Positions 1,630 to 45,483 of a stretch of DNA of 49,356 nucleotides are shown here, piece after piece (the first letter of the stretch is position 1; each line of letters begins with the position of its first letter). The stretch is from assembly GCA_944376335.1 (NCBI GenBank), contig CALWCH010000013.1, positions 1 to 49,356 on the forward strand. The letters run 5' to 3'. This stretch comes from an uncultured Clostridia bacterium (GTDB lineage Bacteria; Bacillota; Clostridia; Christensenellales; Borkfalkiaceae). The translations under genes and the position numbers were made by a program. Under the pieces are notes generated by a model. It saw only the letters and a list, made by a program, of their open reading frames with translations, searched no databases and was not told the DNA's origin.

Positions 1630-1666
1630 ATGATAACCTCTCTTGCGAAAAAATTGATTGCGAATG

Positions 1667-2731
1667 TTATTGGGGGGTGAGCTGCGCTTCCCGGTCCGCC
1701 CGTGCGAGCGCGTCGAGCATCTCATCGAGGTCGCCCGAGAGAAAGCTCTCCATCGAATGAAGGCTGAGCCCTATTCTGTGGTCGGTGATGCGGCTCTGGG
1801 GGAAGTTGTAGGTACGGATGCGCTCGCTCCTGTCCCCCGTGCCGACAAGGGAACGGCGGTTTGCCGCTTCCTCCCTGTCGCGCTTGCCGTTGTAGTAGTC
1901 GTAGAGGCGGGCACGCAGCACGCGGAACGCCTTTTCGCGGTTCTTGAGCTGGCTGCGCTCGTCCTGACAGGTGACGACGATGCCCGTGGGGAAGTGGGTG
2001 AGGCGGATGGCGGTCTCCGTTTTATTGACCTTCTGCCCGCCCGCGCCCGAGGAGCGGTACAAATCGATGCGGACGTCCTTTTCGTCGAGCTCGACGTCCA
2101 CTTCCTCCGCTTCGGGGAGGACGGCGACCGTGACCGTAGACGTGTGGATGCGCCCCTGCGATTCCGTTTCGGGAACGCGCTGGACGCGGTGCACGCCGCT
2201 CTCATATTTCAAGCGCCCGTAGGCGCCCTTTCCGCTGATGTTGACGATGGCCTCCTTGATGCCGCCGAGCTCGGTCTCGTTTGAATCGACGAGCTCGAAG
2301 CGGAGGCGGTGTTTATCGCAATAGCCCTGATACATGCGGTAGAGCTCATAGGCAAAGAGCGCCGCTTCCTCGCCGCCTGCGCCCGCGCGGATCTCGAGCG
2401 TGCAGCCCCGATCGTCCTTCTCGTCTTTCGGAAGAAGGAGCAGTTTGAGCTCGTTTTCGAGGGAAGCGAGCTGTTCTTTGAGGGCATAGCCCTCGTCGAT
2501 GAGAAGCTGCTTCATCTCGCCCGTCTCCCCTTCCGCCTCGGAAAAGGCGGCGTTCATCTCCCCTTCCGTCCTTTCGCACTCCAAAAATTTGAGGGCAATT
2601 TCCTCGATGGATGCCCGCTCCTTCGAATACTGCGCCCAAAGGGAAGGGTCCTGCGCCGTCTCGGGAGCGGAGAGAAGCTCCCCGAGCGTTTCGTAGCGCT
2701 CCGCAATGTCTTTGACTTTTTGATTCTGCAT
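1667..2731 (-). CDS. prfA: Peptide chain release factor 1
   Basis: This 354-residue class I release factor recognises UAA and UAG stop codons and triggers peptide release on the ribosome. The GGQ motif sits near residue 230 within RSSGAGGQKVNKTE. The codon-recognition tripeptide of the PxT type is PET, near residue 186 in RVPETESQGRIHTS. The start MQNQKV is typical of RF1. It lies 26 nt after the yqhQ-prmC fusion. PrmC methylates the glutamine of GGQ, so enzyme and substrate are encoded side by side. Confidence 0.96.
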   Translation of the reverse strand: MQNQKVKDIAERYETLGELLSAPETAQDPSLWAQYSKERASIEEIALKFLECERTEGEMNAAFSEAEGETGEMKQLLIDEGYALKEQLASLENELKLLLLPKDEKDDRGCTLEIRAGAGGEEAALFAYELYRMYQGYCDKHRLRFELVDSNETELGGIKEAIVNISGKGAYGRLKYESGVHRVQRVPETESQGRIHTSTVTVAVLPEAEEVDVELDEKDVRIDLYRSSGAGGQKVNKTETAIRLTHFPTGIVVTCQDERSQLKNREKAFRVLRARLYDYYNGKRDREEAANRRSLVGTGDRSERIRTYNFPQSRITDHRIGLSLHSMESFLSGDLDEMLDALARADREAQLTPQ

Positions 2732-28924: not shown

Positions 28925-29425
28925 TTACAATACGGCGACTTCGAGAAAGCGCTTTTTGTTGACGGTGAGCTTTTTATGTTCGACGTCCACCTCGGTGACG
29001 ACGCCGCTGACGGCGGGGAAGAGTATCTCTTTGCCGCCGCTTTCGAGGGTGTAGATGTCGCTCGCGGCCTGCCTGATGTCGGTGAGGATGCCCAAGACTT
29101 CCCCTTCCTCGGTGACGACTTCGCTGCCCAATAGATCGACGATGTAGTACCGCCCCTCTTCGGGTTCGGGGGCTTCGTCGCGGTCTAGTTCCAAATTTTT
29201 GCCGCGGAGAAGTTCTGCGGCGTTGCGGTCGGGCACGCCCGAGAGGCCCAAAAAGACGGTGCCGTCGCCCACGCGCACGGAGAGGACGCGCCGCTTTTCG
29301 CCGTCTAAATATAAATTTTTGAACGCCTTGAAGTCCTCAGCGCTGTCGGTAAAGGGCTTGACTTTCAGCTCCCCGCGGATGCCCTGCGGCTTTAGGATGG
29401 TGCCGACGACAAGTCTTTCGCTCAT
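28925..29425 (-). CDS. rimM: 16S rRNA processing protein RimM
   Basis: A 166-residue RimM that aids maturation of the 30S head and binds S19. The N-terminal barrel begins LVVGTILKPQGIRGELKV, and the C-terminal PRC-barrel has GRYYIVDLLGSEV near 95 and ILFPAVSGVVTEVD near 135. Its ATG overlaps the tmk stop (ATGA), so translation is coupled. Confidence 0.95.
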   Translation of the reverse strand: MSERLVVGTILKPQGIRGELKVKPFTDSAEDFKAFKNLYLDGEKRRVLSVRVGDGTVFLGLSGVPDRNAAELLRGKNLELDRDEAPEPEEGRYYIVDLLGSEVVTEEGEVLGILTDIRQAASDIYTLESGGKEILFPAVSGVVTEVDVEHKKLTVNKKRFLEVAVL

Positions 29426-30060
29426 AAAATTTCTCCTTCGAAGAGTTGATCGACGGCGGCGCGGATTCGCATTTGCGTCACGTCCTTATTTTCGTCGCTC
29501 TCGATGACGGCGATATGGTCTCTCTCGCGGAATTTTTCGATGAGGGAGAAGTAGCGCTCGCGGATGAGGCGCTGTTTTTCGAGGGTCTCGTACCGCTCGG
29601 TCTCCCCTCGGCGGGCGACGCGGCGGAAGCTCTCCTCGGTGGAAAGGTCGATGAAGAGGGTAAGATCGGGCCGCACGGCTTTCATTGCAGGCTCGTTGAG
29701 GGCATACACCCATTCGCTCTCCACCATCCCCCCGTTGTAGGCGAGCGAGGAAAGATAGAAGCGGTCTGAAAGCACCGTTATGCCCTCGTCCAAAAGCTTT
29801 AAGATGCCGTTGTGGGTATTGAAGATGTGGTCGAGCCTGTCCGCCGCGAAGAGTGCCGCGACGGTGTGTTCGTTGGTCTCCAGCCGCCCCGTGAGGCAGG
29901 AGCGGAGCAGCGCCCCGAAGGGGCTGTCGGTGGGTTCGCGCGTAGAAACGCAGGGAATGCCCTTTGCCTTCAGATACTTAAAAAGCTGCTTTAACTGCGT
30001 ACTCTTTCCGCTGCCGTCTGCGCCTTCAAAGACGATAAATTTTCCTCTCGCTTGCGTCAT
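29422..30060 (-). CDS. tmk: Thymidylate kinase
   Basis: A 212-residue dTMP kinase that makes dTDP for DNA synthesis. The P-loop is GADGSGKST (13-21), followed by STREPTDSPFG near 42 (DR/E substrate motif) and LSDRFYLSSLAY near 100. The ATG at 30060 is exactly 6 nt after a TATAAT box and has no ribosome site, so the mRNA should start at or beside the A of the ATG. A longer in-frame start (30111) would overlap the promoter and also lacks a ribosome site. It is first of the tmk-rimM-trmD-rbgA-rnhB-yraN operon. Confidence 0.94.
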   Translation of the reverse strand: MTQARGKFIVFEGADGSGKSTQLKQLFKYLKAKGIPCVSTREPTDSPFGALLRSCLTGRLETNEHTVAALFAADRLDHIFNTHNGILKLLDEGITVLSDRFYLSSLAYNGGMVESEWVYALNEPAMKAVRPDLTLFIDLSTEESFRRVARRGETERYETLEKQRLIRERYFSLIEKFRERDHIAVIESDENKDVTQMRIRAAVDQLFEGEIL

Positions 30061-30103: not shown

Positions 30104-30119
30104 GTGAGCATTTATTGTT

Positions 30120-44667: not shown

Positions 44668-45162
44668 TCATGCGTTGTACTTCGCCTCGACGGCGGCGTT
44701 CTTTTGAAGCACCTTCTCCTTGGAGGCCCTTCTCGCCGAGACGAGCTTTTCGCGGAGCGCCTCGTCGGAGACGGCTAAAATTTCCACGGCAAGGAGCGCG
44801 GCGTTCTCCGCGCCGTCGATGGCGACCGTCGCGACGGGAATGCCCGAGGGCATCTGCACGGTGGAAAGGAGCGCGTCGAGCCCGTCGAGCGTGGAGCTCT
44901 TGACAGGGATGCCGATGACGGGCAGCACGGTGTTTGCCGCAAGCGCACCCGCAAGGTGGGCGGCCTTGCCTGCCGCCGCGATGATGGCGCCGAAGCCGTT
45001 TGCGGCTGCGTTTTCGGAGAAGGACTTTGCCTCCTCGGGCGTGCGATGCGCCGAGTAGACGTGCACCTCGAAGGGAACGCCGTATTCGCGGAACACGCCG
45101 AACGCCTTCTCGACGACGGGGAGATCGCTGTCGCTCCCCATAATGACTGCAACTTTCTTCAT
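44668..45162 (-). CDS. purE: N5-carboxyaminoimidazole ribonucleotide mutase (PurE)
   Basis: A 164-residue PurE, first gene of the operon. VIMGSDSDLPVVEKA is at residues 6-20, SAHRTPEEA near 42 and PVIGIPVKSSTLDGLD near 85 form the active site. Class I PurE acts on N5-CAIR from PurK; no purK is in this window, so either purK is elsewhere or this enzyme uses AIR and CO2. The start MKKVAV has AAAAGGAG upstream; a longer in-frame start would read through the leader hairpins. Confidence 0.95.
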   Translation of the reverse strand: MKKVAVIMGSDSDLPVVEKAFGVFREYGVPFEVHVYSAHRTPEEAKSFSENAAANGFGAIIAAAGKAAHLAGALAANTVLPVIGIPVKSSTLDGLDALLSTVQMPSGIPVATVAIDGAENAALLAVEILAVSDEALREKLVSARRASKEKVLQKNAAVEAKYNA

Positions 45163-45229
45163 AGAACACTCCTTTTGAGCCGCGCACGGCGTTGTTTTTG
45201 CCTGAGAGAAAGCAGGAAAAAGCCCCGAG

Positions 45230-45278
45230 AAAAAAATTGACAAGGGGCAACTCTACCCAAAAAGGATAGAATTGCCCC
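45230..45278 (-). promoter_or_regulatory. Intrinsic terminator (attenuator) in the purE leader
   Basis: A 15-bp stem with two G-U pairs (45264-45278 with 45244-45258, loop TTTTT) is followed by TTGTCAA and then seven T on the minus strand. It lies between the purE promoter and purE, with no gene end before it, so it must act on the operon's own transcript. A second hairpin, CTGCGG/CCGCAG (45308-45330), precedes it. No known riboswitch core was recognised in the leader. Confidence 0.75.
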
Positions 45279-45285
45279 CGAGCAC

Positions 45286-45354
45286 TCATATGTTTTTTTC
45301 TTTTCCTCTGCGGAAGCGACCGCCCCGCAGCGAGACACAAATAACCGCTTTCAT
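45286..45354 (-). CDS. Possible 22-residue leaderless leader peptide of the purine operon
   Basis: The frame begins MKAVICV, contains RGGRFRRG, and ends in TGA only 7 nt before the terminator stem. Its ATG is exactly 6 nt after the -10 box, so the mRNA should begin at the A of the ATG, the same geometry as tmk. A ribosome finishing here would cover the 5' arm of the terminator hairpin. Existence of the peptide is an inference from position. Confidence 0.4.
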   Translation of the reverse strand: MKAVICVSLRGGRFRRGKEKNI

Positions 45355-45360
45355 GACGCC

Positions 45361-45389
45361 ATTATATCAAGTTCCTTCACTTAAGTCAA
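45361..45389 (-). promoter_or_regulatory. Purine operon promoter
   Basis: TTGACT (45384-45389) and TATAAT (45361-45366) on the minus strand, 17 nt apart, about 190 nt before purE. Confidence 0.85.
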
Positions 45390-45483
45390 GCAGAATATGT
45401 GCATTTTATCCCCTTTCCGCGTGAAAGCCGAATGAAATTTTGTGCAAGATTTTGAATGGATGTCACACTTCCCGCCCGAAGAG

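Follow-up and report, generated by a model that had tools for sequence, protein, structure and literature searches.

A putatively leaderless mini-ORF running into a terminator suggests a translation-dependent attenuator before purE in a genus of Clostridia

Introduction

Attenuators that rely on a translating ribosome are known to respond to amino acids, to pyrimidines (pyrBI) and, in the mgtC leader, to ATP. In pyrBI, low UTP slows RNA polymerase and the ribosome then blocks the terminator. Sinorhizobium trpL is a leaderless leader peptide whose attenuator ORF lies at the very 5' end of the transcript, a likeness to the element described here; it senses charged tRNA-Trp by means of Trp codons and alternative hairpins. 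On the side of purine metabolism, ZMP and ZTP build up when 10-formyl-tetrahydrofolate is short. A literature search over titles and abstract openings, with most subscription journals outside its coverage, returned no ribosome-mediated attenuator of a purine operon.

When a stop codon lies a few bases in front of a hairpin, the ribosome on it can block that hairpin. According to passages of one study in Escherichia coli (PMC4824070), termination fell from about 90% to less than 10% when the stop, at first 28 bp ahead of a terminator, was moved to 5 bp from it, and uncoupling or removing translation abolished this effect of stop proximity. Here we analysed a purE leader in a 49,356-nucleotide stretch of DNA from an uncultured Clostridia bacterium (the window), for which ribosome-mediated attenuation had been proposed from the letters alone, and compared it with the leaders of related genomes.

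Results

Layout of the purE leader

The original prediction had set out, in a row before purE, a promoter, an ATG at the predicted transcription start, a 22-codon frame and a hairpin, and both the scan and the coordinates confirmed this order (Table 1). The genes, which we take to be purE, purC, purF and purM, were named by recognition of their sequences. The promoter, TTGACT-17-TATAAT at 45389-45361, matched the consensus at 11 of 12 positions in the scan, and the A of the mini-ORF's ATG is the seventh base 3' of the -10 hexamer, which is the usual start distance. If the predicted start is right, there is no room for a Shine-Dalgarno sequence in front of the mini-ORF. The pattern TATAATN6ATG occurred twice in the window against 0.01 expected.

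We found that a hairpin does follow soon after the stop codon, with 16 pairs and a 6-nt gap where 15 pairs and 7 nt had been given. The description of the terminator as strong holds for the stem, at -28.3 kcal/mol, and less surely for the tail, in which 6 nt displace the U7 tract. Folding of the whole window leader beat that of 200 shuffles (z -3.4). An Rfam search of the whole window returned no match at the gathering threshold, purine, PRPP and other riboswitches included, and a search around the leader with E up to 10 gave two noise matches and nothing else. Rfam at both settings thus agrees with the earlier statement that the window leader holds no known purine, ZTP or PRPP riboswitch core.

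Table 1. Features of the purE leader in the window
Feature	Position	Strand	Basis and remarks
-35 hexamer, TTGACT	45384..45389	-	Promoter scan; GC adjoins upstream (45391-45390)
-10 hexamer, TATAAT, TG in front	45361..45366	-	Promoter scan
Predicted +1	45354	-	Inferred from spacing to the -10 hexamer
Mini-ORF, 22 codons plus stop, MKAVICVSLRGGRFRRGKEKNI	45286..45354	-	ATG at predicted +1
Hairpin H1, CTGCGGGG/TTCCGCAG	45308..45330	-	Possible RNA polymerase pause hairpin
Run of 17 purines, AGAGGAAAAGAAAAAAA, end of H1 and beyond	45293..45309	-	Read from sequence; possible ATP/GTP-sensitive pause tract
Terminator hairpin, 16 pairs	45243..45279	-	Scan; 6 nt 3' of mini-ORF stop
Terminator U7 tract	45230..45236	-	Read from sequence; UGUCAA between called hairpin and U7
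Shine-Dalgarno of purE, AAAGGAG	45169..45175	-	By eye
purE, first gene of the operon	44668..45162	-	Followed by purC, purF, purM on the same strand

Conservation of the promoter and of the ATG at +1

A PurE search of 103 genomes of the window's genus found purE in 75, of which 74 had a readable leader; in the remaining one (G078) the contig start cuts the leader off. Weak matches in two genomes (G008 and G047, E 2.7e-4 and 7e-4) were not counted as purE, and L115, L120 and L121 are repeats of other loci. The promoter TTGAC-17/18-TATAAT was present in 74/74 leaders. In one of them, L081, the usual promoter site is degraded and this promoter stands 354 nt ahead of purE. The +1 triplet was ATG in 71/74, the exceptions being L012, L080 and L081, and the arrangement is conserved in relatives. 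Each base of this ATG is 96-97% conserved over the 74 leaders, against 32-80% for the commonest base at positions -6 to -1. Together, the excess of TATAATN6ATG in the window and the conservation across the genus indicate that the arrangement is more than chance. By eye, L012 and L080 have an ATG further in, within the H1 3' arm, and in L080 the frame that begins at this ATG stops in the terminator loop.

The bases next to the promoter are conserved as well. G and C stand just 5' of the -35 hexamer in 69/73 and 71/73 genus leaders, and GCTTGAC and the longer AACGCTTGAC occur in 69/74 and 38/74 purE upstream regions, compared with GC before TTGAC in 9/49 other promoters. A GAACGC- or ATTCGC-like motif touches the -35 hexamer of purE promoters and is a possible operator of a purine regulator. 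The operon could then be controlled at its promoter, by a repressor on this element, with the terminator as a constant brake and the frame protecting the 5' end or loading ribosomes. We regard this as unlikely in place of attenuation: it leaves a frame that ends at the terminator unexplained, and the window itself has TTCTGC (45390-45395, minus strand) where GAACGC would be expected. Such control may act in addition to an attenuator.

Apparent leaderless starts in the genome

Leaderless starts look common in the window's genome. There, TATAATN6ATG was found at 29 sites (L164-L192) and the pattern in reverse at 4. A frame at least 133 aa long begins at 24 of the 29 sites, although at least one of these 24, L192, is doubtful by eye. 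One example lies within the window, where a tmk-like gene (29422-30060, minus strand) has a leaderless-type start at 30060; if the gene began in frame at 30111, it would be longer and would overlap the promoter. In two genomes, the distance from perfect promoters to an ATG peaked at 6 nt, with 19 cases against 0-11 at other distances. An ATG kept at +1, a predicted position, in nearly all leaders and starts of this kind that look usual here both fit a leaderless mini-ORF.

An ATG at +1 is not a general property of regulated leaders in the genus. It was seen in 0/22 ZTP leaders not before purE and in 1/28 T-box leaders, in a check that was less strict about the -10 hexamer than the purE count. 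The ZTP figure comes from 30 of 36 matches; five of these stand before purE, and for three of the remaining 25 no promoter was identified. The T-box figure comes from 30 of 46 matches, 12 of them above the Rfam cut-off and two lacking an identified promoter.

The exact placement of the ATG at the predicted +1 would also suit a sensor that acts at leaderless initiation itself. Low 10-formyl-tetrahydrofolate, through poorly formylated initiator tRNA, or a choice of start site that depends on ATP as first nucleotide, would alter loading of the mini-ORF, and the riboswitch that seems to have been replaced in this genus (see below) reads ZMP/ZTP. We consider this improbable, since A is the first base at many promoters in any case, the other leaderless genes should be affected as well, and a relic leader before an fhs-like gene has no ATG.

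Reading frame, stop position and peptide

Using the 71 leaders with a +1 ATG (L012, L080 and L081 being left out), we scored the first stop of each frame relative to a terminator zone that runs from 20 nt before the hairpin through its end. Because the terminators were called automatically, a hairpin start may be misplaced by some bases; for L003 it was chosen by hand. The first stop of frame 0 fell in the zone in 67/71 leaders, after it in 1, nowhere before purE in 3 and early in 0. Frame 1 stopped in the zone in 12 leaders and early in 17, frame 2 in 17 and 10, respectively, and dinucleotide shuffles averaged 20.5 stops within the zone (range 9-33) and 23 early ones. Because related species are not independent, the leaders were dereplicated to 36 that are less than 60% alike over the first 60 nt, and the result was the same: frame 0 stopped in the zone in 32/36 against 9 and 7 in the other frames, with no early stop. 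Most stops fall at one of two sites: at or in front of the foot of the 5' arm, which is where the window has its own, or inside the hairpin loop. In 12/71 leaders the stop codon starts 11-17 nt before the called hairpin, and masking of the terminator should be weaker there.

The peptide itself appears to be under little constraint. The substitution ratio over 18 pairs was 0.77 in frame compared with 0.85 and 0.95 in the other frames, indicating weak peptide constraint, and codon-like conservation was visible by eye only in the window's own subclade (VSLRG..FRG). The comparison of leaders suggests that what is kept is the start, the openness of the frame and the place of its stop, while the amino acids are hardly constrained.

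The window peptide holds RGGRFRRG, and the earlier reading had drawn attention to this richness in Arg and Gly codons. Stalling at such codons would make the leader a classical amino-acid attenuator, and glycine is a purine precursor, which counts for Gly codons as the signal. By eye, the mini-ORF peptides of relatives share no regulatory codon run and do not keep the Arg and Gly codons, MKKAALSCRIRQMND being one example, which makes codon-specific stalling unlikely; the idea was dropped for want of a shared run, and the leaders have no co-evolved antiterminator pairing either. We rate this reading as very improbable, the least probable of those considered.

H1, the purine stretch and pairing with the terminator

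Between the start and the terminator most leaders hold a small hairpin, H1, with its centre near +28.5. From known footprints, H1 would lie just beyond a ribosome sitting on the ATG. As MAFFT alignment of these regions misplaced some clades, H1 was scored per sequence. Its hairpin-score z was 1.57 +- 0.15 over the 36 dereplicated leaders, of which 30 passed a score of our own choosing, and the mean folding z of the region was -1.1 over 67 leaders. The stem sequences vary between leaders while the structure persists, and a few leaders (for example L020, L026 and L088) have a weak H1 or none.

The 5' arm of H1 is rich in pyrimidines, and the 3' arm with the next bases is rich in purines. Purines make up 20% of positions +21 to +25 and 72-78% of +31 to +40 in purE leaders, the respective values for 26 leaderless gene starts from a single genome being 56% and 48-52%. 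The best 15-nt window held 12.2 purines against 10.2 (p 5.6e-5; dereplicated p 8e-4). The enrichment is confined to the H1 3' arm and just beyond, the whole gap between H1 and the terminator being only 52% purine. A role of this stretch as a polymerase pause tract is suggestive only.

The persistence of H1 in most leaders raises the question of whether the RNA acts on its own. The 5' leader might pair with the terminator 3' arm or bind a ligand or protein, with the frame being incidental or a decaying remnant. Two leaders, L012 and L080, lack the +1 ATG, yet keep the promoter, H1 and the terminator, and in some subclades the 5' end carries GAAAAAGGCAG, a match by eye to the 3' arm of the terminator. 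This pairing, striking by eye in some species, failed a swap test: a leader paired with its own terminator 3' arm no better than the leaders of other species did (own versus swapped, z -0.19 +- 0.14; dereplicated +0.11 +- 0.17), and the test found no co-evolved pairing that would form an antiterminator excluding the terminator. The window leader has no Rfam match, and an RNA-only device leaves both the +1 ATG and the in-frame stops at the terminator unexplained. We therefore hold an RNA-only attenuator to have only a small probability.

A ZTP riboswitch at the same place

Rfam detected the ZTP aptamer (RF01750) in six purE leaders of the genus, L006, L007, L014, L016, L077 and L089, four of them at 56-59 bits and two at 60.7 and 61.5 bits. 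A ZTP search of all 103 genus genomes, under filters that may drop weak matches, gave no further aptamer at purE, and the window leader contains no such (pfl) aptamer by Rfam. All six leaders have the +1 ATG, and their frame crosses the aptamer and stops in the terminator zone. An aptamer conserved without the frame had been named in advance as evidence against the proposal; what we found is that the six aptamers sit inside leaders that start with the ATG. The window's genome keeps a ZTP aptamer (L305, G000:C8:29040-29122, plus strand) before a pyruvate formate-lyase activating enzyme (pflA)-like gene; downstream genes were viewed for five of the other ZTP leaders.

In the family, 158 genomes had a match, genus members included, and 55 loci outside the genus were looked at. 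Rfam, applied to 35 of these 55 that were chosen in part for a visible aptamer, reported the ZTP aptamer in 24/35, and a motif check of all 55 counted 29 as ZTP-like. Among the 24 ZTP leaders only L139 has a +1 ATG. L143 has one too, its aptamer being recognised by eye only and lying below the cut-off. In both, the frame crosses the aptamer and stops in the apparent 3' arm of the terminator. In another genus of the family, four purE leaders without a ZTP match (L107, L113, L114 and L116) have a GGGGGAA-like stretch and a U-rich end.

A PurE tree places the genus members that have the aptamer in each of the two large subclades, beside members without it. On the simplest reading, the ancestor of the genus would have had both the ORF and the aptamer and the aptamer would have been lost several times, although gain is also possible; as the tree is weakly resolved (18/90 inner branches well supported), the number of losses is not fixed. 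The ORF seems to have outlived a lost aptamer. In a tentative scenario, possible though rather doubtful as a whole, the riboswitch was handed over to the ribosome: a ZTP leader of the purine operon gained a leaderless ORF that crossed the aptamer and entered the terminator, most species of the genus then lost the aptamer, and leaderless initiation and coupling were left to sense purine NTPs, or 10-formyl-tetrahydrofolate by way of formyl-Met.

Leaders before other genes

One genome, 99% complete and with no purE detected, has the same kind of leader before purL. In a 79% complete genome, with neither purE nor this purL detected, a relic leader (L274, about 1665-1870, plus strand) precedes an apparent formate-THF ligase gene (fhs-like); it has the purE-type promoter, the hairpins and the terminator, and no +1 ATG. 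The terminator sequence of many relatives, used as a pattern, gave 23 matches in 61 genomes. The idea that it is a common repeat did not hold, as 20 of the 23 fell at purE leader coordinates; the other three were at the purL leader, at the fhs-like leader and in an apparent coding sequence. The window's own terminator does not match this pattern.

Terminators and coupling of transcription to translation

We also examined the terminators of ordinary genes. In sequence of the window's own genome, a permissive rule called 28 gene-end terminators. Their median distance from the stop was 13.5 nt, and ten were no more than 6 nt away. Part of a review (PMC7858274) takes short distances between stop and terminator as a sign of uncoupled transcription, as in Bacillus subtilis. 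These distances call for caution about the attenuation reading: ribosomes might not mask terminators here if transcription is uncoupled, and if uncoupling does hold, masking would work only when the polymerase is slowed.

Discussion

A conserved frame from the predicted +1 to the terminator, leaderless starts that look usual in the genome and a leader without a known riboswitch all fit ribosome-mediated attenuation. We therefore favour, with moderate confidence, the view that the purine operon leader is a translation-dependent transcription attenuator working like pyrBI, which perhaps senses purine NTPs. The pyrBI-like layout and the effect of stop proximity in E. coli suggest the direction, with translation favouring expression and low purine NTPs helping it.

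On the framework given by the comparison of leaders, that is, the start position, the frame, the place of its stop and the hairpins, we infer how translation, pausing, signal and direction could work. The polymerase would start at the A of the mini-ORF's ATG, and the nascent RNA would begin with AUG; by the same comparison, a 70S ribosome would load directly at this end, independently of Shine-Dalgarno pairing. H1 and the purine-rich stretch, which spans roughly +31 to +45 (+46 to +62 in the window), would slow the polymerase, more strongly so at low ATP and GTP. A ribosome that keeps up would open H1 and reach the stop at the base of the terminator, or in its loop in other species. By analogy with E. 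coli pyrBI, the ribosome at the stop would occupy the 5' arm of the terminator and the operon would be transcribed. When purine NTPs are plentiful and the polymerase runs ahead, or when translation fails, the terminator would form and transcription would end. The peptide itself would be of little importance. Against this reading, a shortage of GTP would be expected to slow translation and transcription alike. The element seems to derive from a leader whose +1-ATG ORF crossed a ZTP riboswitch, most species of the genus being now without the aptamer but retaining the ORF and the terminator.

If this reading is true, the leader would be a purine counterpart of pyrBI. It would also be a case in which a riboswitch has been replaced by ribosome-based sensing within one genus, with the intermediates still present, and it would give leaderless initiation a use in Clostridia, relatives of B. 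subtilis, where coupling is held to be mostly absent.

Among described systems, the ZMP/ZTP riboswitch RF01750 shares the gene and the position, a terminator follows it too, and in six genus members it sits between the +1 ATG and the terminator; the window leader differs in having no aptamer, the one in its genome standing before the pflA-like gene. Compared with Sinorhizobium trpL, purE leaders showed neither a regulatory codon run nor an alternative-hairpin pairing. Salmonella mgtM, the leader frame of mgtCBR, is alike in being a short frame with adenines, in a coupling set by ATP and in amino acids that are not conserved, as described in parts of PMC3641672; there, according to the same parts, high ATP promotes expression through alternative stem-loops and the genes are not those of purine synthesis. 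E. coli pyrBI, described in a passage of PMC3641672, shares a nucleotide-synthesis operon, a short leader frame read up to the terminator and a nucleotide-rich stretch. The element described here differs from it in belonging to a purine operon, in its apparent leaderless start and in a purine stretch in place of the U stretch. The best reading of the layout, offered as an analogy and not as membership of a class, is that it works like pyrBI with purines for uridines.
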